A DNA stretch of 64,000 nt from Planctopirus ephydatiae (lineage in GTDB: Bacteria; Planctomycetota; Planctomycetia; Planctomycetales; Planctomycetaceae): the NCBI RefSeq assembly GCF_007752345.1, contig NZ_CP036299.1, forward strand, positions 2,743,001 to 2,807,000, in the 5' to 3' direction. Positions 35,880 to 53,756 of the stretch are shown here, piece after piece. The notes beneath the pieces were generated by a model that did no database searches, had not been told where the DNA came from, and worked only from the letters and a program-made list of their open reading frames with translations. Positions within the stretch are counted from its first letter, which is position 1. Every line of letters begins with the position of its first letter. A program made the position numbers and the translations under genes.

Positions 35880-35894
35880 GGTCGTGTCCTTCAA

Positions 35895-37040
35895 TTAAAT
35901 CACCGCCCGGTACAACACCGGCTCAAGCTGGCAAAGCTCCCGCAGCGATCCGTGCAGAATGTAGAGCCGTGGTGAACGCCCAAAGTCGAAGACCCGGAAC
36001 AATTGGTACTGCTGGGGAATATCTTCGGAGCAACGGACTTCATTCGACGTGACGTAAAACGGGAAGAACTTGCCGAGGCCGGTAGCCTTCACTTCCAGCA
36101 TCCGTTCGGAATCGTCCGCTTCATCAAATGAAATGATGTCGAAACCCAACCCGTCGCCGATGTCCTGTGAGGCCCAAACCACTTTCTGGGCCAGATCATC
36201 CCGACCGGCAAGCAAGAGGCGATACTTCTCAAGTTCAAAAACGAATTGCTCACCGAGCTTCCCAAGTTGACGATTTGCAGCGTCTCGTTCGGCAAAGTCC
36301 ATCTTGCGGACCTTGCGGGTGAGCCACGGCTTTCCAGTAACCGAGGGTGCGAAAATCTTTTCTGGCGGGTCTTCGATGACTTCATCGAAGTTCGGCTTGG
36401 TGATTAGCTTCGGCTGCGTCGGGTTCAAGACGGGTGCCGACGCCATTTGCTGCAAGAAGCCGGGCCGCTGATCCAAGAGGGCTTCGACTTGCGTGGCAAG
36501 GATCGACTGGTAGTTGCTGCGGGGCTTGTACCCTTCGATGTACGGCAGGCCCAATTCCACCAGCACGCCGCTCACGTTCTGGTGCTTGAACTCGATGGAA
36601 CCTTCGGATCGCCCAGAGAGTTGCGGGATGAGTGACTTGCGATGCTCAGACTTCTTGTAGGTTTTGCCAAGCAATTCCGATTCAAGCATGTCGAAGTAAT
36701 CGGCCACGATGAGGCGCACTTCGTTCTCGGACCAGTCCTTGCCGGTCTGCGTTTCTTTTTCTTCGTCGGCCTTCTTGACGACGGTGAAGCCGAGCTTTCT
36801 GAGAACGAAGTTGGCTTGACCCGGTGCTTCACCGCCGCTGAACTCTTCCGGCTGAAGCATTCGTTCGATGGAGTACCGGCAGGCCAACCCGACGACGGCC
36901 TTGGGAGCGTACCGCTTGTTATCGTGGACAAGTTCGTAGCCGGTGGGCTTGCCAAAGTGATGGTCGATTCCAGCATCAAGGTCGGACAGCGTTCGGAGAA
37001 CGTGTTCCCTCGTCAGTCCTGCTGGAATGGATTGGGGCAT
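35895..37040 (-). CDS. Putative restriction nuclease, McrA-N/DUF3883
   Basis: 381 residues. The N-terminus (GLTREHVLRTLSDLDAG, then KRYAPKAVVGLACRY) matches the ScoMcrA-type DNA-sulfur/methyl-recognition-associated N domain. The C-terminus is DUF3883-like with a plausible PD-(D/E)XK site: GLGFDIISFDE followed by MLEVKAT (D, E-x-K). The middle is likely helical linker. It is downstream of the tandem helicase, 37 bp away, on the same strand, and probably acts with it as a nuclease against foreign DNA. Confidence 0.75.
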   Translation of the reverse strand: MPQSIPAGLTREHVLRTLSDLDAGIDHHFGKPTGYELVHDNKRYAPKAVVGLACRYSIERMLQPEEFSGGEAPGQANFVLRKLGFTVVKKADEEKETQTGKDWSENEVRLIVADYFDMLESELLGKTYKKSEHRKSLIPQLSGRSEGSIEFKHQNVSGVLVELGLPYIEGYKPRSNYQSILATQVEALLDQRPGFLQQMASAPVLNPTQPKLITKPNFDEVIEDPPEKIFAPSVTGKPWLTRKVRKMDFAERDAANRQLGKLGEQFVFELEKYRLLLAGRDDLAQKVVWASQDIGDGLGFDIISFDEADDSERMLEVKATGLGKFFPFYVTSNEVRCSEDIPQQYQLFRVFDFGRSPRLYILHGSLRELCQLEPVLYRAVI

Positions 37041-37077
37041 GGCGGTTGACTTTCAGCAACGAACGACTGAGTAACTT

Positions 37078-40000
37078 TCATGAGGCTTCGTCTGGAATCG
37101 GTTCTTCATGCGGCAATTCCTGTCCGACCGCCAAGAGAGTAACTCCGAAGTCTTGGAGACGCTGAAGAACCCGTTGCCGTGGTGCTTCGTTTCCAAAACA
37201 CGCAAATGGTTTGCCGTTTCGCTTGAAGCAGAAAAGCGGCTCGGCAATCAGTTCACCGTTCTTCGTCACCAACGGCTCCTGCGAAAAATGGTGTCGGTTC
37301 CAAAGTTCCACCAACCATTTCCGATGCTCATTGCCGATCATGGCGAGAATATCCACAAGATCATCTTGCGGGCTGATCTCTGTCTCGATTGACGGTCGCT
37401 CGTGCAGGTTGTCGAGGCACTCTTGAATGACGCCGTACAGCTTCTTGGCGTGCTGATTGTTCATTCGCTGGGCGAAGAGCGTGAGAATCGACCTCGCCCG
37501 TGTCATCGCCACATATAAATTGTTGGCGAGAATACCAACGTCATTCGCCGTGTATTGGTCGGCAGCGGGAACGATGACGACTTCCGCATCGTATCCTTTG
37601 AACGAATGCGATGTCGTGGCCAGTAGCATATTGCTGCTGCGTTCAAAAGGACGATTCGTTTGAACCGACATCTCGACGCCGATCTCAGCGAGCTTAGGTG
37701 CGACCTGCGTTTCCAATCGCCATTTTATGTTCGAACTGTTGTAGAGCAGGCAAATGTCGGATGGCTGGACACCCTCAGTCTGAATTAACTCACGGCAGTA
37801 TTCAGCAATCGCCTCGAATTCTTGATCGAGGTTTACGAATTGGCGAAAGGATGGCTTTGGCCCGTCGATCTGGTTGAACCGCACCGTCCACCAGTCTTCT
37901 CCATTTCGCTGTGTCTTTTCGATCAACCCTCTCGAAACAAGCTCCTTGTGATCCGGGCTACTATCGGGTGGCTGAAGTCGGTACAGAACGTTAAGTGCGA
38001 ACTCAGTGATGGGCTTCGTGCTGCGAAAGCTTTCCTTCATCACCGTGGACCGACCACGCATGTCGAGACCCAAATCAGACCAAGTGGGAGTTCCTCGTCG
38101 GTAGATGTTCTGGGCATTGTCGTAGAAGATGTTCACCGAGCGACTGTTGCCATCGTTCTCGTCCTTCTGACGCACAATTGCCGAAAGCAGTTTGAGCGTG
38201 TTTGGTCCCATGTCCTGAGCTTCGTCGATAAACAACGCATCGCACCGAGGAGCAATTGCAGCGACCGGCTTCTTGGCGAGATACGCAGCGGCAGCATCAT
38301 CGTACTCAAACTGGAACGAACTCATCGACAAGCCGACTTCGGGGAGCAAGACATCAAGAATCTCTCGAACATGTCGCAAAGTCACCCGATCCCACGGGAA
38401 CGACCTGCCGCCTGATTCTTTTTCCCATGCCGACTCAATCGAGTCCCCGATGAGAGATTGCAAAGAACGATTCGCAAACACAGCCCAAATTCGCAAATTT
38501 GGCTGGTCGCCAAGTCGCTTAGCCGTTTGCATGAGCCAGTGCGCCAAGACAACCGTCTTTCCGCTGCCTGCCACGCCACGGACAAGACGAGGCTTGCCAT
38601 CGAGTTCCAGACCGCAAAGCCGCTCCTGTTCATTGGAGAGAACGGGACGAAGTTCCTTCCGCTTGGACAACTGTGTTCCCAATGAGTTTGGATCGGTATT
38701 GGGTTTGCCGCTCGGAGGTAGATACAGCGTCCTGACCGGCACTTCCTCCCAACTAACTTTCTGACCTCGTTTGCGAAGCACTCGTGGAGCAAGGTGCTTC
38801 AGCAACGGTCGCAGATACGGTTCTTCCATCTCGGCTCGACTGGCGAGCATGATGATCGATTCTCGTGATCGGCTCAAAGCGACATTCACAAGACGTTTCC
38901 ATTCGTCGTAAGGCCAACTGTAACTCCCGGCGTTGACTGAATCGAAAATCACAATGTCGGCCTCTGATCCTTGCTGACTATGTACGGTCGAGGCAGACCA
39001 AGAGGCGATATTGTTCTTGGCGAAGAGCGCAGCAATGTCCTTGGCCTGAGCTTTGAACGGCGAAATGAACAGCCCCTTTGCTTTGCGAAGCGTAGGGTCT
39101 TCAAAGAGCTTTGCCAAAACCTTTGGTGTGGCTACTCTAACCCAGCTTCGGTTTCCCGGTCCTCTCTCGGCTCGGATGGTCGGTAACTCCTCGCCATCAT
39201 CGTCCAGCACATACCAGATTGTGCGGGGTTGCCCTTGAAGCACCATCGGCAGATTGTAGCTTCGTTGATGGACATCCTCTGCTGTGGTCAGAAACCCGTC
39301 GTATTGATAAGTCGAAACGACCGAACAAACGTCAGCGTGCATTCGCCGTTGCTCTTGAAGAACGTGAACGCCATTTTCATGAGTCGAGATACTCTGTAGA
39401 TGGCTAAGGCCGCTGTTCGCCAACCACGTCATTTGACTCGTCGGCAGGATGCGGCTAATCCGGCTTATGGGAGCCAACTGTTTCGAGTCACCCACCAGCA
39501 CGACTCGTCGGCTGGCGAGCAACGAGAGGGCGGCGACTGCGGCCCGTGAAATCAGCCCTGCCTCATCAATGAAGATTGTTGTGAAGGGAGCGGTTCCGGT
39601 TTCGATGCCGGTTTTGACTTCTTCACAGTTCAGGAAAGTCGTTGCCCGAAATGCCGTACCTACAACGACTCGAATGTCACTATCCAAGAAGTTGCGGCGG
39701 GCGCTGTCCCGCATTTGCAGACGCAGTTCCTTGATCTGCTTCCGAATAACCGCCTTGTCTTCTGGCCGATCAGATCGAGCAAGTTCGTCGGCCAATCTAT
39801 CGATCTCAGCGAGGAACTCAGTCTCCGTACCTCGAAGCATCATCGTCAGTTGGTCACGCTCGAACTGCTCTAGCGATGCCCCCTTGCCAATTCGAAGGAG
39901 CTTGCCCTCCTCAAGATCACGGGATGCGACTGACTTGGCAGCACGTCCGATTGCAATAGCAGCAGCGTCCGTCGCTCGGTTTGTCGTCGAAACAACGAGA

Positions 40001-40728
40001 ATGCGTTCGCTGCTGTCCGCCAGAATGTTGGCAACTTGATGTCCGGTGGTGTACGTCTTCCCGGTTCCGGGTGGACCCCAGAGAACGCTCCATGATTTGC
40101 GCCACCAATCGCTCAGCTTTGGCAGACCAACCGTAGCAATGTCATTTGCATCTGGATGAACGCCACCTTCTGTGGCCAACAGGCGATCCGGTAGAAGTGG
40201 GCGCACCTTGTCAAACGCCGGTTCGTGAAACACCGAGTTGAGGAATGCAAGAAACTCAAATGGGCGAACGTAAAACGAACCCTTTCGTGGTGGGTGTTCA
40301 GGGTCCGTGCTACAGACGAAGATTCGGCCCGTTGCTTCGTCAACCTCCAGAATCTCTCCAGTCCAAAGGATCGAGTCATCGATCTCTGTCTCGTCTCCAT
40401 GTTTCTCGAATAGTGGCTTCTGGTCCTCAACATCCTCCTTCATGACCAGTGGCCGAAATGCCACAGCCCCTTCCCAAGTCCAGTCGAACTCGACGGAATG
40501 CCCGATCTGCAAAATGAAAATCGTTCCTGTTTCCGACTCGGACAATACTTCGACTCGTCGGCATCGAAGGCGTTTCCATTTCACAGAATCTCGGAACTCA
40601 CGCTTCACAGCTTCTTGAGCATCCACGAGTAGCGAGGCATCTCCGGTCGGCAAATTCAGATTGACCTTGAAACGTGCTGGCACGTAATCGAAGTCTTCAT
40701 CGGAGTTGTCGGAAGAAATGGCGCTCAT
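37078..40728 (-). CDS. Tandem SF1 helicase fusion (Upf1-like plus UvrD-like)
   Basis: 1216 residues with two complete helicase cores. The first has Walker A GPPGTGKT (218-225), DEAG (388-391), GDSKQLAP and HSQQGSEADIV (583-593), as in Upf1/Dna2-like SF1B. The second has Walker A GVAGSGKT (718-725), DEAQD (835-839), HSFKGYDAEVV and YVAMTRARS, as in UvrD/Rep-like SF1A. About 200 N-terminal residues precede the first core and no nuclease motif is visible. Such a fusion is unusual. It is in an operon with the McrA-N nuclease and divergent to an XRE regulator. Confidence 0.85.
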   Translation of the reverse strand: MSAISSDNSDEDFDYVPARFKVNLNLPTGDASLLVDAQEAVKREFRDSVKWKRLRCRRVEVLSESETGTIFILQIGHSVEFDWTWEGAVAFRPLVMKEDVEDQKPLFEKHGDETEIDDSILWTGEILEVDEATGRIFVCSTDPEHPPRKGSFYVRPFEFLAFLNSVFHEPAFDKVRPLLPDRLLATEGGVHPDANDIATVGLPKLSDWWRKSWSVLWGPPGTGKTYTTGHQVANILADSSERILVVSTTNRATDAAAIAIGRAAKSVASRDLEEGKLLRIGKGASLEQFERDQLTMMLRGTETEFLAEIDRLADELARSDRPEDKAVIRKQIKELRLQMRDSARRNFLDSDIRVVVGTAFRATTFLNCEEVKTGIETGTAPFTTIFIDEAGLISRAAVAALSLLASRRVVLVGDSKQLAPISRISRILPTSQMTWLANSGLSHLQSISTHENGVHVLQEQRRMHADVCSVVSTYQYDGFLTTAEDVHQRSYNLPMVLQGQPRTIWYVLDDDGEELPTIRAERGPGNRSWVRVATPKVLAKLFEDPTLRKAKGLFISPFKAQAKDIAALFAKNNIASWSASTVHSQQGSEADIVIFDSVNAGSYSWPYDEWKRLVNVALSRSRESIIMLASRAEMEEPYLRPLLKHLAPRVLRKRGQKVSWEEVPVRTLYLPPSGKPNTDPNSLGTQLSKRKELRPVLSNEQERLCGLELDGKPRLVRGVAGSGKTVVLAHWLMQTAKRLGDQPNLRIWAVFANRSLQSLIGDSIESAWEKESGGRSFPWDRVTLRHVREILDVLLPEVGLSMSSFQFEYDDAAAAYLAKKPVAAIAPRCDALFIDEAQDMGPNTLKLLSAIVRQKDENDGNSRSVNIFYDNAQNIYRRGTPTWSDLGLDMRGRSTVMKESFRSTKPITEFALNVLYRLQPPDSSPDHKELVSRGLIEKTQRNGEDWWTVRFNQIDGPKPSFRQFVNLDQEFEAIAEYCRELIQTEGVQPSDICLLYNSSNIKWRLETQVAPKLAEIGVEMSVQTNRPFERSSNMLLATTSHSFKGYDAEVVIVPAADQYTANDVGILANNLYVAMTRARSILTLFAQRMNNQHAKKLYGVIQECLDNLHERPSIETEISPQDDLVDILAMIGNEHRKWLVELWNRHHFSQEPLVTKNGELIAEPLFCFKRNGKPFACFGNEAPRQRVLQRLQDFGVTLLAVGQELPHEEPIPDEAS

Positions 40729-40764
40729 GCAACGTGACTTTGTGGATGGAGTAAACCTTCGGTG

Positions 40765-41103
40765 CTATCGATTGCGACGCTTTTTTCCAATCTCCGTCAT
40801 CAACTTGTCGAGAGTCTTGTCATCGCAATTCGCCAATGCCCCGAACACGTCGGGCCGCTGAAGAACACGCCGCCGTATTCGCTCCGGCACCCGCTCGGCA
40901 AGGACGGTCAATTCTTCTTCGTCGGCTTCAAGAGCATCGGCCAGTCGGTGGATCAAGGCATCGCTGGGGTAGTCCCCGAAATTGAGCCGACCGTTCTCGA
41001 CACGGCTCAGGTACGTGAACCCCACATCGACTTTTTCGGCCAACACCCGCAGGCTCCAACCCTTGGCGTGCCGAAGTTCTCGAACACGTTCGCCAAATGT
41101 CAT
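40765..41103 (-). CDS. XRE-family transcriptional regulator
   Basis: 112 residues. N-terminal HTH (FGERVRELRHAKGWSLRVLAEKVDVGFTYLSRVENGRLNFG) followed by a C-terminal helical part that might bind a ligand or dimerise. Divergent to the UvrD-like gene (about 107 bp) and upstream of the tandem helicase, so it probably controls both arms of the locus. ATG at 41103 starts the HTH; the longer frame covers the divergent promoter. Confidence 0.88.
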   Translation of the reverse strand: MTFGERVRELRHAKGWSLRVLAEKVDVGFTYLSRVENGRLNFGDYPSDALIHRLADALEADEEELTVLAERVPERIRRRVLQRPDVFGALANCDDKTLDKLMTEIGKKRRNR

Positions 41104-41210
41104 TTCTGCTTCGCTTTCCGTGGTCGCTGCTGGTTGCTGCTTGCCCCCCAATATCGTAGGATGTTTGCAGTCCTTAGACAACATAGAGGGCCGCAGATCG
41201 GCGAGCAGTA

Positions 41211-44030
41211 ATGACGACCAAGTTGACAATCGCAACAGTCGAAGAATCTCCGCAAACCGGGGGTAGCGGGTCGTCGTTTGTCTTGTCCCCTGAGCAAGAA
41301 AAAGTCGTCAACCACCGTGGCGGGCATCTTCAGGTGATTGCCTGTGCCGGTGCCGGAAAAACCGAAGCCATCTCCCGAAGGGTGGCATCGCTGATCCTTG
41401 ACGGGGCCGAGCCTTCCCAGATCATCGCCTTCACGTTCACGGATCGGGCTGCTCAGTCACTCAAGACACGAATCACGAAGCGGATCGCTGAAGCCAAGGG
41501 ACCGGCATTCTTGGATCGCCTCGGCCCCATGTTCGTGGGGACGATCCACTCGTACTGCCTGCGAATGCTTCAGGATCACGTTCCCGAATTCGGCAACTTC
41601 GACATTCTGGACGAGAACCGACTGGCGGGACTGCTTAGCCGGGAACACAAGCGGCTCGAACTCAGCAAGTTGGGGAACCAGCACTGGCGACCGATCTTCG
41701 ACTTTCTGCGCAACGCCGACGTGGTGGAGAACGAACTGATCGACGGTGGGTTGATGAAGGGTACGCCGTTTGGCGACTGCTACCTCGCCTTCAAGCAAAC
41801 CCTTTACCGTTATCATTTCCTAACCTACGGCCTGTTGATCTCAGCGGCGGTGAAAGCCCTTTCCCGACTGGAAGTGGCTAATCGGGTCCGAGCCAATCTG
41901 CGATACCTGATCGTGGACGAGTATCAAGACGTGAACCCGGCTCAGGAAAAACTGATTTCGCTTCTGGCTCAAGACCCCGTGCAGTTGTGCGTGGTCGCTG
42001 ACGATGACCAGTCGATTTACCAGTGGCGTGGTTCCGACGTTTCCAACATGCTCGACTTCAGGAAACGCTATTCCCCGGCGACCTCGCTGACGCTTTCCGT
42101 GAATCGCCGCTGCCGCCCGAAGATCATCAGTTCGGCCAACGCCTTTGCAACATCCATTGCCCCTCGGCTCACGAAGAAAATGGAACCGCACCGGCAACCG
42201 GGCGGACCTGAAGTTCATGGCTGGGCCGCAGAAACCGATGCAGCCGAAGCAGTCACGATTGCAGATACCATCGAGCGGCTAAGGGGAGAGGGGTTTCGGT
42301 ATAAGGACATCGCCATCCTTTACCGCTCTGTCCGAACCGCCTCACCGCCCTTGATCGAAGAATTCAAGAAGCGGGACATTCCCTTCCGCTGTGCCGGGCG
42401 CACGGGCCTGTTCCTTCAACCCGAAGCCTCTGCCCTTGGAAAGCTCTACGCCTTACTCAGCGGCAACGAGTGGAAGAGCGAACGCTACGGTGAATCGCAA
42501 TCGGTTGACCTCGATGATGTGGACCACGAGTTCGCCGCCGCCTTCAACGAAGGGGAAACGATTCCCGACCTTCGCCCGTACTTACAAGACTGGCAGGCGA
42601 TGGTCAAGGACAACACGGCTCAGGTAAACCTTGTCCGTGATTACTACCGTCTCTTGCGGCTGGTCGGCGTCAATACTCTTGATCTGGATGATCCCGCCGA
42701 TTCCGCCCGCATGGGGACGCTGGCCCGCTTCTCGCAAATCCTTGCCGACTTTGAACACGTCACTCGCCGGGCAAGGTACGTTGACGAGCAAGGTCAGCAA
42801 ATCTTTCGTGGCGGGCAAGACCGGGGCATCTACTTTTACCAGCGGCTCTACAACTACCTTCAGTATTACGCTCTCGATGCCTACGAAGATTTTGAAGGGG
42901 AAGACACCTTCGATCTGGATGCCGTGGACATCCTGACGGTGCATCAGTCGAAGGGGTTGGAATGGCCCGTGGTGTTCTTGCCGAGCTTGGTTGAGGGCCG
43001 GTTCCCCTCACGCTACGCCGGTCAGTCTCAGGATTGGCTGTTGCCCGAATCGGTTTTCCCCGCCTCCGTTCGCAAGCGATACGAAGGCAGCGATACAGAG
43101 GAACGCCGACTTTTCTATGTTGCGCTCACCCGTGCTAAGGATGTGGTTTACCTCTCCCGCTTCCGCCGCAAGACGAACAAGTTCAAACCGTCGCCGTTTC
43201 TCTTGGAGATTGTTGGCTCTGACCCTGAACTCGCCGAACAACTTCCCTTGCCGCCGACATTCACGCCTTCTGCGGAATCTGGCGATGAGTTGCCCACCGT
43301 GTCCTTTTCTGAACTGGCTTCCTACGAAGGATGCCCGCTCAAGTACCGATTCAGTTCGTCGCTGGGCTTTCAACCGCAACTGGTGGCTGAACTCGGTTAC
43401 GGTCGTGCCATCCACCACATTCTGCGGCACATTGCCGAGGCAACGAAGGCCAAGCAACAACTTCCTACGCTTGAAGAAGTCGAGAAAGTATTCGCCAAAG
43501 AGTTCTACCTTCCCTTCGCCAACAACGCCGCATTTCACAACTTGCTCGACCGGGCCAGATCGCTCGTCGGCAAGTACCTCTCGGATTACAGCGGCGAATT
43601 GCTTCGGGTCTGGGAAACGGAACGGCCTTTTGAATTGCACTTGGAAAAGGGCGTAGTGAATGGCCGGGCCGATGTGATCCTCGACCGTGAAGGTGGTGTC
43701 GTCGGCAATCTTGGGATCGTGGACTACAAGACAGCGAACGATGCAAAATCGGACGACGTGTTCGCCTTTCAGTTGGCGATTTACGCCGCTGCGGGGCGTG
43801 GTGAAGGGTTGGACGTGAAAGCGGCTTACCTTCACGCTCTGAAGGAAAGTGTCAGAAAAAACGTGCCGGTTGATAACGTGGCAATCAGTGTGGCACGCAA
43901 GCGGGCGGACACATTGATCGAAGGGATCGTAGCCGCTGAGTTCCCGCCACGCCCTGAATTGTCTAAGTGCAAGGTGTGCGACATGCGGGCCATTTGCAAA
44001 CACGCTCAATGCAGCAAGTACGACCTTTGA
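41211..44030 (+). CDS. UvrD-like helicase with PD-(D/E)XK nuclease
   Basis: 939 residues. SF1A helicase core with Walker A ACAGAGKT (44-51), DEYQDVNPAQ, QSIYQWRG, VHQSKGLEW and YVALTRAKD. The C-terminal third is a RecB/AddB-like PD-(D/E)XK nuclease: GRADVILDRE, GIVDYKT, and a four-Cys arrangement (SYEGCPLKYRF and CKVCDMRAIC, i.e. C-x2-C-x5-C) that in AddB and Cas4 binds a 4Fe-4S cluster. A single-chain helicase-nuclease, first gene of the plus-strand run. Confidence 0.9.
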   Translation: MTTKLTIATVEESPQTGGSGSSFVLSPEQEKVVNHRGGHLQVIACAGAGKTEAISRRVASLILDGAEPSQIIAFTFTDRAAQSLKTRITKRIAEAKGPAFLDRLGPMFVGTIHSYCLRMLQDHVPEFGNFDILDENRLAGLLSREHKRLELSKLGNQHWRPIFDFLRNADVVENELIDGGLMKGTPFGDCYLAFKQTLYRYHFLTYGLLISAAVKALSRLEVANRVRANLRYLIVDEYQDVNPAQEKLISLLAQDPVQLCVVADDDQSIYQWRGSDVSNMLDFRKRYSPATSLTLSVNRRCRPKIISSANAFATSIAPRLTKKMEPHRQPGGPEVHGWAAETDAAEAVTIADTIERLRGEGFRYKDIAILYRSVRTASPPLIEEFKKRDIPFRCAGRTGLFLQPEASALGKLYALLSGNEWKSERYGESQSVDLDDVDHEFAAAFNEGETIPDLRPYLQDWQAMVKDNTAQVNLVRDYYRLLRLVGVNTLDLDDPADSARMGTLARFSQILADFEHVTRRARYVDEQGQQIFRGGQDRGIYFYQRLYNYLQYYALDAYEDFEGEDTFDLDAVDILTVHQSKGLEWPVVFLPSLVEGRFPSRYAGQSQDWLLPESVFPASVRKRYEGSDTEERRLFYVALTRAKDVVYLSRFRRKTNKFKPSPFLLEIVGSDPELAEQLPLPPTFTPSAESGDELPTVSFSELASYEGCPLKYRFSSSLGFQPQLVAELGYGRAIHHILRHIAEATKAKQQLPTLEEVEKVFAKEFYLPFANNAAFHNLLDRARSLVGKYLSDYSGELLRVWETERPFELHLEKGVVNGRADVILDREGGVVGNLGIVDYKTANDAKSDDVFAFQLAIYAAAGRGEGLDVKAAYLHALKESVRKNVPVDNVAISVARKRADTLIEGIVAAEFPPRPELSKCKVCDMRAICKHAQCSKYDL

Positions 44031-44042
44031 TGAGAGACATGG

Positions 44043-47000
44043 ATGGCCAGCAAACGGAAGATTTTGGAAGTGTTGACTCGCACGGGCCTGCTGGACATTG
44101 CACGGCACTACGAGATCACCGGACTGACGGCTCAAAGCAAAGCGGACATCGTGGATGCTCTGGCCGGAAGTCGAACAGTTCAACCGGAAGAGTTCCTGAC
44201 CCTGTTCGGACGAGACGATCTCAAGGGGATTTGCCAAAGCCTTGGACTGGATGAGTCTGGGCGAGAAAAGCAAGTCCTGATGGACCGGCTGATGGGACGG
44301 GAATCCGAAACCAACGAACCACAAGCAACGGCAAACGATACGAGGCAAGCGATGGCAAAGAAGAAGCCCAAGACCGCTGTGGATGGCCTGAATGTCGAAG
44401 ACTATCGGCATTCCGGGGCAAAGCGAAAGAACAACCCGCCTGCCAAGATCGCCTCCGAGGGTACTGTCCCGGCGATGCCGAAGATCGAGTATTCGTACAG
44501 CCCACGCCGTCCGCCGGTTCTGCGATTCGATCCCACGGGCAAGGCGGATCAATTGCCTGAATTGCTTGAGAAGGCAACCAAGGAACCGCTGACCAAAGAA
44601 GAAGCCCAGATTCTTGCGGAAGCACTGCGCACACAGGCTCCGTGGCTAGAGTGGGCGGGCAAAAAAGAACTTGAGTCGAAAAGCTTCGCTGTCGATCCTG
44701 TGGCCCTGCATATCCATGAGCGCATATCGGCTCAGGCAATTCTCAAAGTTGCCGCCCGCCAAGACGTGGAACGTACTCTCTTCAGCGACCCGGAGCAGGA
44801 GTATCACGAGGCCGTTCAGTTCTACAAGCACGAAATTGACTGGACCAACCGACTAATTCTTGGGGACAGTTTGCAAGTGATGGCGTCCTTAGCTTACCGA
44901 GAAGATTTGGCGGGCAGAGTGCAGATGATCTTCATGGACCCACCTTATGGCATCAAGTACGGAAGCAACTTTCAGCCGGAGTTGGGTAGAAGAAACGTCA
45001 AGGATAATGACGCAGACTTCACTCGTGAATTGGAGATGGTGAAGGCATATCGAGATACTTGGCATCTCGGCCTTCACTCCTATTTGGTCTACTTGCGTGA
45101 ACGGCTGATGGCCGCAAAACAACTGCTTGCGGACACGGGAAGCATTTTTGTCCAAATTGGCGATGAAAACGTACACCGAGTTAGAGTGCTTCTCGATGAA
45201 GTGTTCGGCCCAAACAACTCTTTTGCACTCATTAGCTTCAAGAAGACCCTGCCACTTGGGGCCTCAGGGCTTCCCAGCATCACTGACTTTATTCTGTGGT
45301 ACACGAAGGATCGTGAGAAAGCTAAGTTTCAGTCGCTATATGAATCAAAGCCACTTGGAAGCGGGACCGGGTACACATGGATTCTCGACCCGTCAACCGG
45401 TCACAGACGCAAGATGACCACTGAGGAACGGCAATCACCAGAGTCGATCAAGGATGGGTTGCAGCCGTTTTTTGCCGACAATTTGCTTTCGTCAGGCTAC
45501 ACGCCGTCATGTTTCTATGATATCCCATTCGAGGATCGGGTATTTCCGAGTCAAAAGTATAGCTGGAAGACGAATCAATCTGGCATTAAGCGGCTCGGTC
45601 AAGCAGAGAGAGTAATCGCACCCGGAAAGTTGCCGAACTACATTCGGTATTTCGAGGATTTTCCAGTTCAAGTTATTCACAATCTGTGGAACGACACTCA
45701 TGGTGCATCTGATCCACTATATGTCGTCCAAACATCAAACAAGGTGGTTGAGCGATGTATGTTGATGTGTACTTCTCCAAGTGACCTTGTTCTTGATCCG
45801 ACCTGTGGCAGTGGAACCACCGCTTTCGTTGCAGAACAGTACGGTCGCCGTTGGATCACGATTGACACGAGTCGTGTGGCTGTCGCAATTGCTCGACAGC
45901 GGCTATTGAGTGCAAAGCACGACTACTACCGGCTAAGGGATGAATCGGCAGGAATTGTTGGTGGATTCACTTGTAGGGCAGTTCCCCACATTACACTACG
46001 CAGCATCGCCCAAAACCAAAACCTCGACCCGATCTTCGCCAAGCACGAACCAATTCTTGATGTAAGACTCACGACGTGCAATGAGTCCCTCTCGAAGGTC
46101 ACTCAAGAGATTCGCCTCAAGCTCGACACCAAGTTGATGGATAAGCTGCGGAAAGAAGGAAAGCGGTCTGTAACAGACGCCGACAATCGCCGTTGGCAAC
46201 TTCCGAAGAAGGGTGAGAAGTTCGAGCATTGGACTGTCCCCTTCGATACCGATCCTGACTGGCCCAAGGAACTTCAGCAGGAAGTCAGCGAATATCGCAA
46301 GGCGTGGCGAACCAAGATGGATGAAGTCAACGCCTGCATCGCTGCCAACGCCGCCCAAGAGGAACTTGTTGACCAACCAGAAGTTGAAAGGGGAATTGTT
46401 CGTGTCAGCGGTCCATTCACCGTGGAAGCTGTCCAACCGCCTGAGCGTTCTCTTGGTGTGATGGAGGGCATGTTTGACGGTGGGCCAGAAGAACTGGAAG
46501 ACTCATTTGAAACGATGAACATCGAATCCTACCTCGACCAAATGACACGTCTGCTCAAGCTCGACGGTGTGCGATTCCCCAACAACAAGGAAATGGCTTT
46601 CGGTCGGATTGATCGGCTCGTCGGTCAGTCTGGTGGTTTACACGCTGAAGGGAGATGGTTGCTCAAGGGCGGAACCGACGACGACCCAAATGGCAAGGCC
46701 AACGTCGCAGTGGGCTTTGGGCCACAGTATGGACCGATCACGGCCAAGCAAGTCGAAGACCTGATTCGTTCGGCAAGTCGCCGGGGCTACGACGCTCTTG
46801 TTGTGGCTGGGTTTAGTTTCGATGGACCGGCTCAAGCGGCCATTGAAGAAGCACAGCATCCTAAGCTCCACATCCACATGGCTCACATTCGCCCTGACAT
46901 CAACCCCGGCATGGCGGGCCTGTTGAAAGACCAAAAGGGAAGTCAACTCTTCACGGTATTTGGTCAACCCCGTACTCGGGTCGAAGGACCGGATAAGAAA

Positions 47001-47330
47001 GGCGATTACGTCGTCCACATGGAAGGCGTGGACATCTACGATCCGGTTGCCAACACGATCCGCAGCACCGAGGATTCCAAGGTTGCGGCGTGGTTCGTGG
47101 ATGGTGACTACGATGGTCGAACATTCTGCATCACCCAAGCGTTCTTCCCCGACAAGTCGGCGTGGGAGAAACTCGCCAAGGCGTTGGGTGGGGTCGTGTC
47201 AGAAGAAGCCTTTGAGAAGATGTCAGGAACCATCTCACTGCCGTTCCCAGCGGGCAAGCATAAGTGCGTGGCCGTAAAGGTAATTGACCCACGAGGCAAC
47301 GAGGTCATGCAAATCCATCGGATTGGTTGA
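44043..47330 (+). CDS. Beta-class DNA adenine methyltransferase (type III Mod-like)
   Basis: 1095 residues. Two SAP/Rho-N-like repeats at the N-terminus (about 1-85) that may bind DNA. The catalytic part has DPPYG at 299-303 before the SAM site DPTCGSGTT at 585-593, the beta-class order of type III Mod enzymes. A C-terminal extension of some 400 residues is unusual and has no domain I recognise. It precedes the SF2 helicase gene, and is most likely the modification component. 12 bp spacing from the UvrD-like gene. Confidence 0.88.
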   Translation: MASKRKILEVLTRTGLLDIARHYEITGLTAQSKADIVDALAGSRTVQPEEFLTLFGRDDLKGICQSLGLDESGREKQVLMDRLMGRESETNEPQATANDTRQAMAKKKPKTAVDGLNVEDYRHSGAKRKNNPPAKIASEGTVPAMPKIEYSYSPRRPPVLRFDPTGKADQLPELLEKATKEPLTKEEAQILAEALRTQAPWLEWAGKKELESKSFAVDPVALHIHERISAQAILKVAARQDVERTLFSDPEQEYHEAVQFYKHEIDWTNRLILGDSLQVMASLAYREDLAGRVQMIFMDPPYGIKYGSNFQPELGRRNVKDNDADFTRELEMVKAYRDTWHLGLHSYLVYLRERLMAAKQLLADTGSIFVQIGDENVHRVRVLLDEVFGPNNSFALISFKKTLPLGASGLPSITDFILWYTKDREKAKFQSLYESKPLGSGTGYTWILDPSTGHRRKMTTEERQSPESIKDGLQPFFADNLLSSGYTPSCFYDIPFEDRVFPSQKYSWKTNQSGIKRLGQAERVIAPGKLPNYIRYFEDFPVQVIHNLWNDTHGASDPLYVVQTSNKVVERCMLMCTSPSDLVLDPTCGSGTTAFVAEQYGRRWITIDTSRVAVAIARQRLLSAKHDYYRLRDESAGIVGGFTCRAVPHITLRSIAQNQNLDPIFAKHEPILDVRLTTCNESLSKVTQEIRLKLDTKLMDKLRKEGKRSVTDADNRRWQLPKKGEKFEHWTVPFDTDPDWPKELQQEVSEYRKAWRTKMDEVNACIAANAAQEELVDQPEVERGIVRVSGPFTVEAVQPPERSLGVMEGMFDGGPEELEDSFETMNIESYLDQMTRLLKLDGVRFPNNKEMAFGRIDRLVGQSGGLHAEGRWLLKGGTDDDPNGKANVAVGFGPQYGPITAKQVEDLIRSASRRGYDALVVAGFSFDGPAQAAIEEAQHPKLHIHMAHIRPDINPGMAGLLKDQKGSQLFTVFGQPRTRVEGPDKKGDYVVHMEGVDIYDPVANTIRSTEDSKVAAWFVDGDYDGRTFCITQAFFPDKSAWEKLAKALGGVVSEEAFEKMSGTISLPFPAGKHKCVAVKVIDPRGNEVMQIHRIG

Positions 47331-47361
47331 TTGGTCACGCACGAAAGCCGAGGAGTTCCCC

Positions 47362-50300
47362 ATGAGCGATACACAAAAACAAATTCCGATCCAGCCCGTC
47401 GATAAACCCATCATTTGTTCGCCCTATACGGAGCCGGATTACTTCTGGTTTTACGACAAAGCCACTGGCAAGGCGACGAAGACGAAAGGCCGCAGGCAAG
47501 CCGGGTACTGGTACAAGACTGAGCAATTCGGCACGAAGGAAAAGTCTCTCTTTACGGACCTTGATCCCGAAGAGAACTTCGACGACTTGCCACTCATCAA
47601 CCTGTTGCGGGAAGACGTTCGCCGCTGGAGAGAATCTGACTACCGGGGTGCCACGAACGTCACCAAGGAACTTCTGAAGTGGTGGACTAACCCGGATCGC
47701 AGTCGCAGGCTCTTCTTCTGCCAGTGCGAAGCGGTTGAGACGATGATTTATCTGGCCGAGATGCGAATCCCCGGCAGGACTTCCAAGACGGGCTTCAAGA
47801 AGTTTGCCCTGTCCGATGAAAACCTACAGCGGTTGCTCAAAGGTCAACGCCCCCAGCCGGAAGGCGAAGTCGAGCTTGATCGGTTCGATGGAAAAACCAA
47901 GAAGGTCAATCCTTTTCAGAATCTCGCCACCGCCAATTTCTTTCCGACGCTCGTGGATTTGCCGTGGGATGCTGACCTGCTTCCGTTGCGGCGTATGGGC
48001 TGCAAGATGGCAACAGGGTCAGGCAAAACCGTTGTGATGGCGATGCTCATCTCGTGGGCCTTTTGCAACCGGGCCGTGAACCCCAATAGCACCGAGTTCC
48101 CCAACGCCGTTCTTATTTGCTGCCCCAACTTGACGGTCAAAGAGCGACTTCAGGTTCTTCGCCCCGATAACCCAGACAATTATTTTGCCGCTTTCGACCT
48201 CGTGCCGGTCAACTTGCGGCCACATTTGCACAAGGGAAAGGTTCTTGTCGAGAATTGGCACTGCTTCGGTCACGAGTCCGAACACAAAGAGGGTGATAAG
48301 AGCTACGCCGTCGTCAATAAAGGACCAGAGACGCCAGAGACTCTTGCTCGGCGGGTTCTCGGTGATCTCTACGACCACCTTCCGATCATGGTCCTGAATG
48401 ATGAGGGGCATCACTGCTGGCGACCTGCTCCACCGGACAAACAGGTGGAAAATGTCGATACATCCCGCAAAGGGAAGAAGCGTGTAGACGTAACCGATGA
48501 CGATCCCAAGGAGTTTAAGGAGGAAGAGAACGAAGCCCGTATATGGCTTCAGGGTTTGGACTGGATCAACAACTGCATGGGTAAGGACAAACGTGGCATC
48601 GCTTATTGCTTCGACCTATCCGCTACACCGTTCTACATCAAGGGGAGCGGGTTCTCTGAAGGGCAACCCTTCTCTTGGCTTGTGAGTGACTTCGGGCTTG
48701 TCGATGCTATCGAATCCGGGATCGTCAAGATTCCACGTTTACCTGTGATAGACGATCAGGAGAAGAAGGACGAAGTTGGACGGCCTGACCCAAAATACTT
48801 CCGCCTCTGGAAACACATCAACCAGAGTCTTCAGCCGAGCGAAAAGTTTGGCAGTGGAAAGCCGAAGCCGGAACCCTGTTACCGTGAGGCTGAGGGGGCG
48901 CTCAAGCAACTCGCCGGTCAATGGCACGAGAAATACCGACTGATTGAGGAAGCCAACCCAAATCAGGAAAAAGTTCCCCCTGTACTGATCGTGGTCTGCG
49001 ACAACACGGAAATTGCCGACTACTTCTACCGTAAGATTAGCGGCGAGTCCGAATCCGACGTTGTGACGCTCGAAGACGTGGAGGACGTGGAAAACGAAGA
49101 GGCCGAGGAAGAGGAAGAATCGACATCCAAGAAGGGTAAACCAAAAAAGCAAACTGTCTACGGTGAGTCGGCCATCCTGCCGGAATTTGCGAACAACCCC
49201 AAACGCAAGTACACGATCCGTATCGACGTAAAGATGCTGAAGGATGCCGAGTCCGAAGACCCGACAAAAACAAAACAAAAGGCAGCAGAGGACTTGAGGC
49301 GAGTGGTGGCCACGGTAGGCAAGAGGGGCGAGCCGGGAGAACACATCCGCTGCGTGGTGTCTGTCGCCATGCTGACCGAGGGCTGGGATGCCAACAACGT
49401 CACCCATATTCTCGGCGTGAGGGCCTTTGGCAGCCAACTCCTGTGCGAACAAGTGGTGGGCCGTGGCCTACGCCGCATGAATTACCACCCTGAACCTGAT
49501 GAAGACGGAAAACTCCTTCTTCCTGCTGAATACGTGGACGTGTACGGTATCCCGTTCTCGGTGATCCCGTACAAGGGGCGAGCGCAGGATCAGGCTGCAC
49601 CGGAGGACAAGCCCAAGAATCGCATTTGGGCCATGCCGGATCGGGAAGAACTGGAAATCCGTTTCCCAATTGTCGAGGGCTATATTCCCAAGCTGACGAA
49701 GGGACTGCTTCGTTGCAAGTTCGACGATATTGAGACACTGAACATCGATCCCAAGGTGGAGCCGACAGCGACTTACTTACGGCCTGCCGCTGGATACGTG
49801 GATTCACACCAAAACGAAAAAGTGCCGTTTGAATATGTGCAGCAGGACCGGGAGGGTTACTACGCACAGACTCACTTCCAGTCGATTCTCTTCCAGATCA
49901 CACAGAAACTCGTGGACGATTTTCAATCACCAACGGCCCCTAACACCGACAAAACAAGTCGTGTTATGCGACTGCAATCCCGACACCAACTGTTTCCTCA
50001 GATTTTTACGTTCGTTGAACAGTTTGCTCGGTCGAAGGTGGAATACAACGGAGCCAATCCAAAGGAATTGGGACTGCAAAAATACTTGACGCAGGCTGTG
50101 GCAAAGCTCCGGCGAGCAATTTATCCCGACGAGCATTCTGGTGAACCACCACTTGTTCCGATTCTCAACAGCTACCGTCCGGTCGGTTCGACCAGTGGCG
50201 TTGACTTCACCACGACTAGACCAGTCGTGTCTTCGTCGAAGAGCCACATCAATGCGGTCGTAATCGACTCTGGATTTGAAAAGGATGAATGGGAGAAGAA

Positions 50301-50676
50301 GGCGGTGGACGTGATGGAGTCCCCTGCGGCAGCGTCACTCGTACTCAATTACGCCCGCAACGACCATCTCGGACTCGTCGTTCGCTACGAATACCTCGAT
50401 CTGGAATACAGCTACAGCCCTGATTTCATCGTCCGCCTTGCAAACGATTTGTTTCTGCTTCTGGAAATCAAAGGATACGAGAGAGACAAGGCAAAGAACG
50501 ATGCGAAGCATGAGGCTGCACGTCGTTGGGTGTCAGCAGTCAACAATCTCGGCGACTTTGGCCGCTGGGAGTTTCGCCCCTGCTACGACCTTGAATTGCT
50601 TCTGCCGCTCTTGGGAGAGCTTGTCGGTCAGCAGGTGCCGGTCACAAGCTTGAAGTCCGAAGACGACCTTTTCTAA
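47362..50676 (+). CDS. SF2 helicase-endonuclease (type III Res-like)
   Basis: 1104 residues. SF2 core with Walker A MATGSGKT (216-223), DEGHH (347-351), SATPFY, then TEGWDANNVTHILG and QVVGRGLRRM. C-terminal PD-(D/E)XK motif with Asp1021, Glu1035 and Lys1037 (SPDFIV, LLEIKGY). The combination is type III Res-like and follows Mod-like gene, with a highly charged region near 575-600. ATG at 47362 is set by GAGGAG upstream. It probably cuts unmodified DNA after translocation. Confidence 0.88.
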   Translation: MSDTQKQIPIQPVDKPIICSPYTEPDYFWFYDKATGKATKTKGRRQAGYWYKTEQFGTKEKSLFTDLDPEENFDDLPLINLLREDVRRWRESDYRGATNVTKELLKWWTNPDRSRRLFFCQCEAVETMIYLAEMRIPGRTSKTGFKKFALSDENLQRLLKGQRPQPEGEVELDRFDGKTKKVNPFQNLATANFFPTLVDLPWDADLLPLRRMGCKMATGSGKTVVMAMLISWAFCNRAVNPNSTEFPNAVLICCPNLTVKERLQVLRPDNPDNYFAAFDLVPVNLRPHLHKGKVLVENWHCFGHESEHKEGDKSYAVVNKGPETPETLARRVLGDLYDHLPIMVLNDEGHHCWRPAPPDKQVENVDTSRKGKKRVDVTDDDPKEFKEEENEARIWLQGLDWINNCMGKDKRGIAYCFDLSATPFYIKGSGFSEGQPFSWLVSDFGLVDAIESGIVKIPRLPVIDDQEKKDEVGRPDPKYFRLWKHINQSLQPSEKFGSGKPKPEPCYREAEGALKQLAGQWHEKYRLIEEANPNQEKVPPVLIVVCDNTEIADYFYRKISGESESDVVTLEDVEDVENEEAEEEEESTSKKGKPKKQTVYGESAILPEFANNPKRKYTIRIDVKMLKDAESEDPTKTKQKAAEDLRRVVATVGKRGEPGEHIRCVVSVAMLTEGWDANNVTHILGVRAFGSQLLCEQVVGRGLRRMNYHPEPDEDGKLLLPAEYVDVYGIPFSVIPYKGRAQDQAAPEDKPKNRIWAMPDREELEIRFPIVEGYIPKLTKGLLRCKFDDIETLNIDPKVEPTATYLRPAAGYVDSHQNEKVPFEYVQQDREGYYAQTHFQSILFQITQKLVDDFQSPTAPNTDKTSRVMRLQSRHQLFPQIFTFVEQFARSKVEYNGANPKELGLQKYLTQAVAKLRRAIYPDEHSGEPPLVPILNSYRPVGSTSGVDFTTTRPVVSSSKSHINAVVIDSGFEKDEWEKKAVDVMESPAAASLVLNYARNDHLGLVVRYEYLDLEYSYSPDFIVRLANDLFLLLEIKGYERDKAKNDAKHEAARRWVSAVNNLGDFGRWEFRPCYDLELLLPLLGELVGQQVPVTSLKSEDDLF

Positions 50677-50712
50677 GTCACTGGCGTGGCTTGCAGGGAG
50701 ACACAAGGGCCA

Positions 50713-51879
50713 ATGGCATTACTCGACCTATGGAACGCCGACCGCCAACAAATCACCGGCAAACGCATCGACCAACTGATTGCGTTTGCCGGGGAGGGGC
50801 GACTTCGTGATGGCAACACCACGTCAGAAGAGTTTCGCACGCTGTTGAAAGCGGTTTCGAGCGATGTGATCGGCCAGTGGTTGAATGAATGCCTTGAGAA
50901 TCGGTTTACCGACTTCGGATTCGTCCTGCAAGATACGGTCAATGAGGTTGGTCGCCGCTTGGGATTTGATGTGACGCACGGCGTTTATCGGAGTCACAGC
51001 AACGAAGGTTACGACGGACTCTGGCGGATTCCGGGTGGGCGAGCGATCTTGGCCGAATCCAAGAGTTCGACATCCTACAGCATCGCCCTCAATCGGATTT
51101 CGGAGTATCGCAAGCAAGTCGCCCCACAACTCGGATTGCGACCGGAAGACATTTCCATCCTCATCGTCGTCGGCACTGAGGATACGTCCGAATTCGAGGC
51201 TCAGGTCCGGGGTTCTCGGTTTGCTTGGGACATTCGGATTCTCGGCGTGCAGGCACTCTATCGCCTGCTCAAGTTGAAAGAAGCCTTGGATGATCCCAAA
51301 GTTGAGCGCCAGATTCAGGAAATCCTGTTTCCACAAGAATTCACCCGGCTGGATCGCATCATCGACTTGGTGTTTGCCACCGCCGAAGATGCTCAAGACT
51401 TTGAATCAACTGAGGAAGAGGTCGAGGTTGATGATTCCGCACCAGAGAAGCCGAGAGCAAACTTCCACGCCGCAATCCTTCCCCGGCTGGAAAAACACTT
51501 CGGCCAGCCATTGGTGAAGCGATCTCGCTCCCAATGGGCCACACCTGACGATGCGTCGCTGGTGTCATGTCAGGTTTCAAAACACTTCGACAAGGGCAAT
51601 GCCGATTTCTGGTTTGGGCTGAAGCGAACATCACGAGAGACGCTTCAGAAACACAAGAACGCATTCTGCGCCTTTGGCCTTGGATCGCCGGATAGGGTTG
51701 TCGTGCTACCCATGTCGTTCTTGGCCCCACACGTTGATAGCTTTTTCACGTCGCCAGATAAAGAGGGCGGAATCCTGCATTGGCATGTTCGCTTTGTGAA
51801 TACCAATACGGGCGTAGCCATGTTGGTTGACCGAGACAGAAAGCAGTTGGATGTGACCAAATATCTGCTGAAGGAGTAG
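50713..51879 (+). CDS. Separate PD-(D/E)XK restriction-like nuclease
   Basis: 388 residues. YDGLWRIPGGRAILAESKSS gives Asp101, Glu115 and Lys117, a compact PD-(D/E)XK site. N-terminal part is helical; a second, C-terminal module (about 255-388, WATPDDASLVSCQVSK, FWFGLKRTS) has no family I recognise. A third nuclease beside those in the helicases is not part of ordinary type III systems. ATG at 50713 follows AAGGGC-type weak SD; the earlier start at 50686 is less likely. Confidence 0.75.
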   Translation: MALLDLWNADRQQITGKRIDQLIAFAGEGRLRDGNTTSEEFRTLLKAVSSDVIGQWLNECLENRFTDFGFVLQDTVNEVGRRLGFDVTHGVYRSHSNEGYDGLWRIPGGRAILAESKSSTSYSIALNRISEYRKQVAPQLGLRPEDISILIVVGTEDTSEFEAQVRGSRFAWDIRILGVQALYRLLKLKEALDDPKVERQIQEILFPQEFTRLDRIIDLVFATAEDAQDFESTEEEVEVDDSAPEKPRANFHAAILPRLEKHFGQPLVKRSRSQWATPDDASLVSCQVSKHFDKGNADFWFGLKRTSRETLQKHKNAFCAFGLGSPDRVVVLPMSFLAPHVDSFFTSPDKEGGILHWHVRFVNTNTGVAMLVDRDRKQLDVTKYLLKE

Positions 51880-51935
51880 CAGCAGTTTCTGTTGGCAAAC
51901 ACTTCAACGACAAAGCGTGCTTTTAGGAACTTGCG

Positions 51936-53756
51936 ATGAAACTCTCTCGCCTGCGAATTCAGGGATTTCGGACCATCGAGCGTGGGCTTGATTGTCGGCT
52001 CACCCCCCTGACTATCTTTACTGGCCCGAACAATTCAGGAAAGTCGGGCATCATCCGGGCGTTGGACCTCTTCTTCAACAACAAGGGCGATCCCACTTCC
52101 TGTATCCCTCACATCCGAACAAACCCTGATGCAGCCGAACGCCAAAAGCGATACACGATTCAAATCACTGTCTGGTTTTCCGAACTTCCTGCTGACCTAT
52201 CTACGAAATACGCCTCGTACCTCAATCGGCAGCAAGAGTTGCCAGTTCGACTTCGCTTTTATCCAAAATCGACTACTCTGGAATACCTGCTATTCTCGCA
52301 GGGTAGCGTCCGCAACGGCGTGAAAGACGGCACGGCGTCCAAGTCAATTCATGCCGACATCTGCAATCATCTTATTCTGCGTGTTATTCCAGAGAGCCGT
52401 GATATTCAGCGTGAGTTTCGGACTGAGCTTGGCGAAGCGTATGCAGCCCTGAAGGATTCTGTCGTACAATCAGCAACAAGCAAAGCTGCACGAGCGGCGG
52501 CAGAACTCCATGATGCACTGAACGATATTCTTGACAAAGAACTGACAAAGCGACTGAATCGCAATATGGGGAACGTTATTCCCGATCACGCTTTCAAGAT
52601 CGGGACGCTCTCCAAAAGCGAATTCGCAAAAATCGTCATGCAAGAGTCGCTTGCTCGCTATCCCATTTGTGCCGAAAGCCCAGATGGGGATGAGTTTCCG
52701 CTCGAACAGATCGGTGCGGGATTCCAGAGCAACGTGCTTATTGCGCTTCACCGTGCCGTTGCGGCTCTGGCTGGCAAACAACTCTTGCTGTGCGTTGAAG
52801 AGCCTGAAATTCACTTGGACCCAACCGCACAGCGACGAGCCTACCATGAATGGCACCGAGTTAGCCGAGAAACCAATGAGGTCGAACAGATTCTCATTAC
52901 GTCGCACTCGGCATTTATCGTTAATGAAGCACGACCTGAAGAGCTTGTCGTTGTTCGGCGTGATGAACGCAACAGGACGATTAGTTCTCAGCTAACGTCC
53001 GAGTTCCTTGTCAAGCACGATGTGGTCCACCTTCGGCTCAAGGTTCTCGGCCTGCGAAACAGCGACATATTTTTCTCGACAGGTGTAGTGCTGGTTGAGG
53101 GTGACTCTGACGCAGTTGCCATAAGAGGATGCCTTGATCTTCTTCAACGAACGTCGGGCAATGGCAATGCACCGGCAGGAATCGGTTTGTCGATTATTGA
53201 GTGCGGTGGAATGAAGTCAATCGTTCCACTGGCCAGAGTAGTGAGGGAACTTGGGATTCCTTACGTCCTTGTGTTCGACCGAGATTTCCTTCAGCAGACG
53301 GATTCCACATCAGGGGCCGAACGCACCTATCACGCAACGGCTGCGGCCACATTTGATGACCTAGAAGAAGTGTGTGACACTCCGACTCAGTTTGCGACGA
53401 TGAAGGCTGCTGTTTCATCCCGTTTCGCTGCGGGGGCGACTGCGGGGTATCCACTGGCCATCAATAGAGAACTCATTCGCCATCGCATACTCACCATGCG
53501 GACGGAACACGAAACTGATTTTATTGATGAGAACACTGCTCCGCATGTCGCATTGGTCGTGGGTTACTCAATTCCCGCTGGTCAGGACATTGCGGCAACC
53601 GTGGATCACCTAAAGAGGAATCACCGCAAGCAAATCAAGCAGGCGACAAACACGGCTCGTGTCCTAGCCACGATCACGGACAAAGCACAGTTGCCTAGTG
53701 TCTACGCCCGGCTGTGCAAGGACATTATCAAGACCCTTTATCCAGCTTCGCCGTGA
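51936..53756 (+). CDS. OLD-family ATPase with TOPRIM nuclease
   Basis: 606 residues. ABC-like ATPase: Walker A GPNNSGKS (30-37), Walker B EEPEIHLDP (288-296), and H-loop TSHSAFIV. C-terminal TOPRIM domain with Glu388 (VLVEGDSDA) and Asp448/450 (VFDRD). This is the OLD nuclease type, the class found in P2 Old and in defence systems such as Gabija GajA. No GajB-type helicase follows, but a UvrD-like protein is encoded at the start of the run. Confidence 0.9.
   Translation: MKLSRLRIQGFRTIERGLDCRLTPLTIFTGPNNSGKSGIIRALDLFFNNKGDPTSCIPHIRTNPDAAERQKRYTIQITVWFSELPADLSTKYASYLNRQQELPVRLRFYPKSTTLEYLLFSQGSVRNGVKDGTASKSIHADICNHLILRVIPESRDIQREFRTELGEAYAALKDSVVQSATSKAARAAAELHDALNDILDKELTKRLNRNMGNVIPDHAFKIGTLSKSEFAKIVMQESLARYPICAESPDGDEFPLEQIGAGFQSNVLIALHRAVAALAGKQLLLCVEEPEIHLDPTAQRRAYHEWHRVSRETNEVEQILITSHSAFIVNEARPEELVVVRRDERNRTISSQLTSEFLVKHDVVHLRLKVLGLRNSDIFFSTGVVLVEGDSDAVAIRGCLDLLQRTSGNGNAPAGIGLSIIECGGMKSIVPLARVVRELGIPYVLVFDRDFLQQTDSTSGAERTYHATAAATFDDLEEVCDTPTQFATMKAAVSSRFAAGATAGYPLAINRELIRHRILTMRTEHETDFIDENTAPHVALVVGYSIPAGQDIAATVDHLKRNHRKQIKQATNTARVLATITDKAQLPSVYARLCKDIIKTLYPASP

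Follow-up and report, generated by a model that had tools for sequence, protein, structure and literature searches.

The window analysed here is a stretch of 64,000 nucleotides of Planctopirus ephydatiae (positions 2,743,001 to 2,807,000 of contig NZ_CP036299.1), whose genome of 5.2 megabases is a single contig. Between positions 35,895 and 53,756 the window carries two divergent gene runs with a small XRE gene between them. A sequence-only reading had proposed that these genes form one new multi-gene defence system with three or four nucleases and three helicases, and every gene that it listed is an open frame at the position given. The plus-strand run begins with three closely spaced genes, which we call the core: UvrD-Cas4, a helicase-nuclease, Mod, a DNA methyltransferase, and Res, a helicase with a nuclease motif. 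The gaps between them are 12 base pairs (bp) for UvrD-Cas4/Mod and 31 bp for Mod/Res. We propose that the core is probably a type III-like restriction-modification (RM) operon of the BPTD_3080 class with a UvrD-Cas4 protein, which sits inside a larger defence island, the other genes being separate passengers.

The UvrD-Cas4 gene (41211..44030, plus strand, 939 amino acids) encodes a superfamily 1A UvrD helicase fused to a PD-(D/E)XK nuclease of the Cas4/AddB type. Its single chain matches PF00580, PF13361 and PF12705, the combination of a superfamily 1 (SF1) helicase of the UvrD type with a Cas4-like nuclease (pfam12705), and also PF01930 (Cas_Cas4), the latter with a low score of 23.6 bits against the Pfam cut-off of 22.7. 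Walker A and the DE(Y/F)QD motif of the helicase are invariant in all 13 aligned sequences, and so are D838-x-K840 and Q854/Y858 of the nuclease as well as Cys 708, 920, 923 and 929, which are predicted to form a cluster of the iron-sulfur type. Among the solved relatives recovered by a profile search are UvrD, PcrA, AddA and RecB, together with an AddB chain.

The Mod gene (44043..47330, plus strand, 1095 amino acids) encodes a beta-class N6/N4 DNA methyltransferase, which matches PF01555 (N6_N4_Mtase) at 1.2e-28 and carries DPPY ahead of DPTCGSGTT, the motif order of the beta class. It is related to characterised type III Mods, matching PADLOC MTase_III at 9.5e-162 and EcoP15I Mod at 7.5e-10 over residues 269-426, and other type III Mods match too; a SAP match stayed under threshold (22.8 bits, cut-off 23.9). 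The C-terminal part, residues 690-1095 (406 residues), was folded with 30 sequences to a mean predicted local distance difference test (pLDDT) value of 76, and the model consists of a PD-(D/E)XK-like domain at about 830-955 and a beta-sandwich at about 974-1095. In VIA-align comparisons the region of about 830-955 aligned with the EndoMS-type nucleases 2vld, 5gkj and 5gke (Z 9.6-10.0, root-mean-square deviation 2.4-3.4, 101-110 residues), and the C-terminus aligned with AspBHI, PaqCI, MspJI and FokI at Z about 8. The evidence for a PD-(D/E)XK-like fold in the C-terminus of Mod is only moderate because unrelated beta-sandwich proteins in the same list reach Z 8.3 on the last domain; a Foldseek search with the model gave no match at E<=0.001, and a PDB sequence search with the C-terminus gave nothing better than E 0.26. 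As the strand where ExK is expected reads AVGFGPQYG in the window Mod, the modelled nuclease-fold domain is probably inactive, its catalytic residues being apparently absent.

The Res gene (47362..50676, plus strand; 1104 amino acids from ATG, 1130 from TTG at 47284) encodes a superfamily 2 (SF2) helicase with a C-terminal PD...ExK nuclease motif. With 908.7 bits against a curated cut-off of 800 it is a member of NCBIfam NF046055, the BPTD_3080 family restriction endonucleases, a name of which we found no mention in open-licence PubMed Central papers. Across 10 aligned sequences there is little or no variation in the principal SF2 helicase motifs and in the C-terminal PD...E; PADLOC REase_III matches at 2.7e-10 over 45 residues. 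Of 392 genomes in the phylum, 97 hold a relative at E<=0.001, a count that takes in partial and distant ones. The three core proteins are what the sequence-only reading had taken them for: a UvrD-PD-(D/E)XK protein with a Cas4/AddB-type Cys cluster, a beta-class Mod-like methyltransferase and a Res-like helicase-nuclease. As a separate observation, the Res proteins of two loci from other genomes (loci are labelled L) end in a Peptidase_S24 (LexA-like) domain that is absent from the window Res (L064, 9941-13576, 33.1 bits; L076, 8575-12186, 32.9 bits; cut-off 23.3), which is possibly a link to DNA damage; the Res of L069, also a UvrD-Cas4 locus, ends much the same way in the alignment, with no Pfam match there.

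Co-occurrence of the three genes was followed from Res. A scan of species genomes with the Res alignment gave at least 508 confirmed relatives, the best 80 of which were kept and their partner genes located by tblastn; a wider set of 104 loci adds 20 around further genome-search matches and four plasmid loci. Mod is in view at 65 of the 80 Res loci, and 38 of the 80 have Mod together with at least 3 kilobases (kb) of flank on both sides. UvrD-Cas4 is found at 9 of these 38 well-flanked loci, and the same 9 are all that carry it among the 80; they include L073, at which other genes intervene and the locus edge cuts the UvrD-Cas4 gene. Four arrangements of the three genes occur, across several phyla: UvrD-Cas4-Mod-Res (L056, L064, L069, L076, L130, L150 and L142, where Res is matched at its start only), Res-Mod-UvrD-Cas4 (L103, L123, L126), Mod-Res-UvrD-Cas4 (L172) and a divergent one (L145, L171). 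Hence UvrD-Cas4 is encoded with Mod and Res in the window and in relatives, and because the three co-occur in several phyla, the sequence-only reading was right to add a RecB-like UvrD to a Mod-Res pair; the extra nuclease, the OLD gene and the minus-strand genes that it placed in the same system were not found to co-occur with them in the loci covered, two single DUF3883-domain cases apart.

UvrD-Cas4 itself is rare. At E<=1e-60 the phylum has it in 4 genomes out of 392, counting the window's own. In two other groups, of 148 and 150 genomes, its profile at E<=1e-150 picked out 2 genomes each, one of them being the genome on which the group was centred. Among plasmid records there were 7 matches at E<=1e-40, of which 6 cover at least 80% of the protein, and viral contigs gave just 3 partial matches of 25-35% identity. 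Eleven loci found through UvrD-Cas4 were opened (L142, L143, L144, L145, L171, L172 and the plasmid loci H31, H32, H33, H35 and H36), leaving out H34, which shares its strain with H35, and H37, in which only 40% of the query is covered. In all 11 a DNA methyltransferase adjoins UvrD-Cas4 or lies within about 6 kb of it. Relatives of the window Mod and Res stand beside it in L172, and the same Mod as in the window is found in L142, L143 and L144, the contigs of the latter two ending inside Mod. An Athalassotoga locus has another type III Mod-Res (PADLOC 1.3e-134 and 1.4e-131), L145 and L171 have a methyltransferase and a ResIII gene, and a Haloferax locus has a short methyltransferase. On Nitrosomonas plasmids (the L160, L161, L162 group, with relatives on a Spirosoma plasmid) UvrD-Cas4 is accompanied by a DNA methyltransferase and a protein with a TnsA-N domain, a partner set that differs from a type III Res.

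A different UvrD helicase, of about 692 amino acids, is present at 7 of the 38 well-flanked Mod-Res loci and at 10 of the 80 overall (L110, L111, L114, L116, L117, L118, L120, L121, L131, L133). In one of the three that were scanned a RelE-like (HigB) match was seen below the cut-off. This helicase and UvrD-Cas4 are found together at none of the 38 loci, nor of the 80, where simple arithmetic would expect about 1.7 of the 38; their mutual exclusion is not statistically firm. The gene that follows the core also differs between UvrD-Cas4 loci: on the same strand there are NYN and GmrSD_N proteins in L069 (13607-18399), a DEAD helicase with a weak DUF559 match in L076 (12196-15771) and a TIR-TPR protein in L103 (18968-22162), a HEAT protein follows in L056, and in the Mod-Res-UvrD-Cas4 run of L172 a 1077-residue Sacsin and NOV_C/DUF3883 protein (5185-8418) comes directly after UvrD-Cas4. 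Such variety fits a defence island, and it makes a variable effector slot possible.

In the window the core is followed on its own strand by two genes, 56 bp apart. The nearer one (50713..51879, plus strand; 388 amino acids from ATG, 397 from GTG at 50686) encodes a putative PD-(D/E)XK nuclease, recognised by a shared motif that reads GYDGLW...ESK here and GFDGLW...EVK in one distant homologue of 28% identity. This kept motif and the frame itself speak for the extra PD-(D/E)XK nuclease read earlier, but no Pfam, PADLOC or NCBIfam family matches at E<=0.001; the structure modelled from its single sequence reached a mean pLDDT of only 41.7, too low to be of use. It has one relative in 391 other genomes (L146), none in the plasmid collection, and two pattern matches in viral contigs, of which none was confirmed. 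At L146 (4545-12803) the relative is grouped with an HmaC/DUF499-type ATPase and an AAA_21 protein, a set that is possibly another defence cluster. The farther gene (51936..53756, plus strand, 606 amino acids) encodes an OLD-family ATPase with a TOPRIM domain, as read before, with matches to PF13175 (AAA_15) and PF20469 (OLD-like_TOPRIM), to PADLOC Old at 1.6e-37 and to PDB 6p74 at 1.7e-24; its 151 plasmid records are distant and none covers 80% of it. Nuclease and OLD are probably passengers of the island; they are not conserved with the core, but may share its transcript.

The minus-strand run starts at the XRE-type regulator (40765..41103, 112 amino acids, recognised from its translation), which diverges from the core with a gap of 107 bp to the UvrD-Cas4 start; NCBIfam helix-turn-helix models match it below their cut-offs, and the plus-strand frame over it has no Pfam or PADLOC match. 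Next comes a tandem SF1 helicase (37078..40728, minus strand, 1216 amino acids) with an AAA_11/AAA_12 core and then a UvrD-like core by Pfam. Both genes are as the sequence-only reading described them. Of its McrA-N/DUF3883 nuclease (35895..37040, minus strand, 381 amino acids) the NOV_C/DUF3883 part holds (PF13020, 2.9e-16), whereas the McrA-N half has no Pfam match; PADLOC gives the candidate PDC-S36 at 4.1e-100. Directly after it lies an SNase-domain protein (35235..35894, minus strand, PF00565, 1.5e-23), of which the sequence-only reading had said nothing. Full-length relatives of the tandem helicase occur in 2 other genomes of 226, and the eight frames scanned beside them encode a DUF1800 protein, two kinase-TPR proteins, a peptidase, a phosphoesterase, a HEAT protein and two proteins with no match. 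Among the 104 loci the helicase query peaks at 186 summed bits (L044), as against about 1000 bits for full-length relatives, and none of its 42 plasmid records covers 80%. By tblastn the DUF3883 protein is found at one of the 80 Res loci (L110, upstream of Res, 39% identity to the window protein), and Pfam adds L172, where the domain lies inside a larger protein. Besides the window itself, a custom NOV_C profile recovered L110 alone; since L172 escaped it, the profile is too insensitive for a count. Apart from these two single DUF3883-domain cases, co-occurrence does not link the XRE-SF1-DUF3883-SNase set to the core.

Further out on the minus strand are a tyrosine integrase (29942-30886), a RuvB-like gene (31776-32798) and an ArdC-like antirestriction gene with a zincin domain (33301-34317), and because of these three the region is probably a mobile or acquired island. 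The stretch that they occupy (29942-34317) adjoins an arsenic-resistance ArsD/ArsA pair and is likely a mobile-element edge. On the other side, OLD is followed by a cupin frame and two frames with no Pfam match, and a second N6_N4 methyltransferase gene (56081-57730, minus strand, 549 amino acids) lies outside the locus studied. A promoter scan gave fewer hits than chance (3, mean 7.9) and a terminator scan about as many (22, against 20.4). A short inverted repeat across the XRE gap is a candidate only. The names MADS, Mokosh, PD-T4-1 and TmtA that appear in the PADLOC lists are partial matches.

Several points weigh against reading the core as a restriction operon with its own UvrD-Cas4. At 29 of the 38 well-flanked loci with Mod and Res there is no UvrD-Cas4, which is therefore an optional part. 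In Res, 8 of 10 aligned sequences have the Lys of ExK and the other 2 have Ser in its place, and the resemblance to EcoP15I Res is weak (profile E 0.052). The ATG of the 388-residue nuclease stands 36 bp past the end of Res, so that this gene may be co-transcribed with the core. That the 11 of 11 association with methyltransferases lies beyond chance, for so rare a gene, is our judgement and not the outcome of a numeric control. The main rival takes Mod and Res as an ordinary restriction pair and UvrD-Cas4 as a protein that repairs the host chromosome after Res cuts. RecB/AddB-like domains serve recombinational repair, an ancillary RecB-like function is discussed in PMC5704561, and an optional gene would suit such a role; yet UvrD-Cas4 is linked to several classes of methyltransferase, on plasmids too, which suits an attack on foreign DNA at least equally, and we regard a repair role as unlikely.

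It is less probable that, in this lineage, the five plus-strand genes make up a single compound system, in which the nuclease and OLD would be additional effectors set off by Mod-Res or by the DNA ends that UvrD-Cas4 makes. The shared strand, the gaps of 36 and 56 bp with no gene between, the nuclease relative 18 bp upstream of the HmaC/DUF499-type ATPase gene, also a defence-like setting, and the defence-type genes after the core on the same strand in L069, L076 and L103 would all agree with it. However, tblastn finds the nuclease at none of the 80 Res loci, and OLD is beside a Mod-Res pair at none of them, its sole match (L094) being weak (82 bits), on the opposite strand and at a locus where Mod is not in view. 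Of 392 genomes, one besides the window's own has a relative of the nuclease, and among 226 genomes OLD has no other match at E<=1e-25. Very unlikely is a system of both divergent operons under the XRE regulator, with the tandem helicase, the DUF3883 protein and the SNase as extra effectors. The layout around a single XRE gene and the two cases of DUF3883/NOV_C near Mod-Res (L110, L172) would speak for it, but the 19-20 kb around each of the two full-length helicase relatives hold no match to other window genes, the DUF3883 protein matches 1207 plasmid records and is thus widespread on its own, and no XRE match is listed near Mod-Res elsewhere in the 104 loci. The single new multi-gene system that takes in the nuclease, OLD and the minus-strand genes is rejected because co-occurrence fails in the loci and genomes searched. 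As an extension of the restriction operon that we prefer, BPTD_3080 Mod-Res might be a modular platform, in which a dead nuclease fold on Mod would dock partners or grip DNA, either UvrD-Cas4 or the RelE-like UvrD helicase would be taken up as an exchangeable SF1 motor and, here, a captured nuclease and OLD would share the transcript; taken whole, this is a tentative and rather unlikely idea.

For the preferred restriction operon, linkage, families and catalytic motifs are direct observations, and from them we infer the steps of action. Judging from its class and motifs, Mod would methylate its own sites, probably on adenine, and so mark self. By analogy with EcoP15I, Mod together with Res would recognise unmethylated foreign DNA, on which the SF2 motor of Res would move or signal along the DNA and its C-terminal nuclease would cut. 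UvrD-Cas4 may then load on the broken or unwound DNA and, driven by ATP, degrade it much as AddAB/RecBCD does, which would make single cuts irreversibly destructive. If confirmed, this would mean that a restriction enzyme can come with a RecBCD-like degrader of its own and need not rely on that of the host. The window copy has all three core genes open in one contig, and the C-terminus of Mod and the alternative helicase, which are new details of this Mod-Res kind, are concrete objects for tests.

With regard to known systems, the hallmark genes are pglZ and brxC for BREX and drmA and drmB for DISARM, and in agreement with the sequence-only reading none of their domains appears in the complete Pfam lists of the eight scanned frames, nor any BREX or DISARM name among the PADLOC matches listed for the same eight, which are part of the island genes. 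The window OLD protein resembles the OLD family (6p74) and Gabija GajA in being an ATPase with TOPRIM, but no GajB-type UvrD lies directly beside it, unlike in the Gabija pair; the window UvrD gene is the fourth gene upstream of OLD and carries a nuclease. The 692-residue UvrD helicase of other Mod-Res loci is like ArmD of ARMADA in its domains as described in PMC12458937, a likeness of description and not of alignment; that helicase is not in the window, and none of the eight scanned window proteins has the YprA-type metal-binding domain by Pfam. With AddAB/RecBCD the window UvrD-Cas4 shares a UvrD motor and a RecB-family nuclease with a Cys cluster, whereas it is one chain and is encoded with a restriction system.

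Type III RM enzymes depend on ATP and cut at a fixed distance from asymmetric sites that lie head to head and are unmodified. Like EcoP15I, the core has a beta-class Mod, related to EcoP15I Mod, and an SF2 Res with a C-terminal PD...ExK; unlike it, the core has a Res of weak similarity, a long Mod C-terminus modelled with a PD-(D/E)XK-like fold and an extra UvrD-Cas4 subunit. The term UvrD-Cas4 occurs, among open-licence PubMed Central papers, in PMC5704561 only, and no experiment on UvrD-Cas4 in combination with restriction came up in the titles and abstract starts searched there. According to that 2017 paper (Hudaiberdiev et al.), UvrD-Cas4-like fusions are a single-origin group among pfam12705 proteins, their commonest neighbourhood is a type III Mod and Res, for which a defence role was predicted without tests, and a second context has Dcm and Vsr. 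UvrD-Cas4 with Mod and Res being in print since then, the core is not a new combination; the kind is known in print and apparently untouched by experiment. Compared with the fusions by the text of their description, and not by a list of loci, the window protein has the same architecture, a UvrD helicase with a pfam12705 Cas4-like nuclease, and stands in the same Mod-Res neighbourhood.

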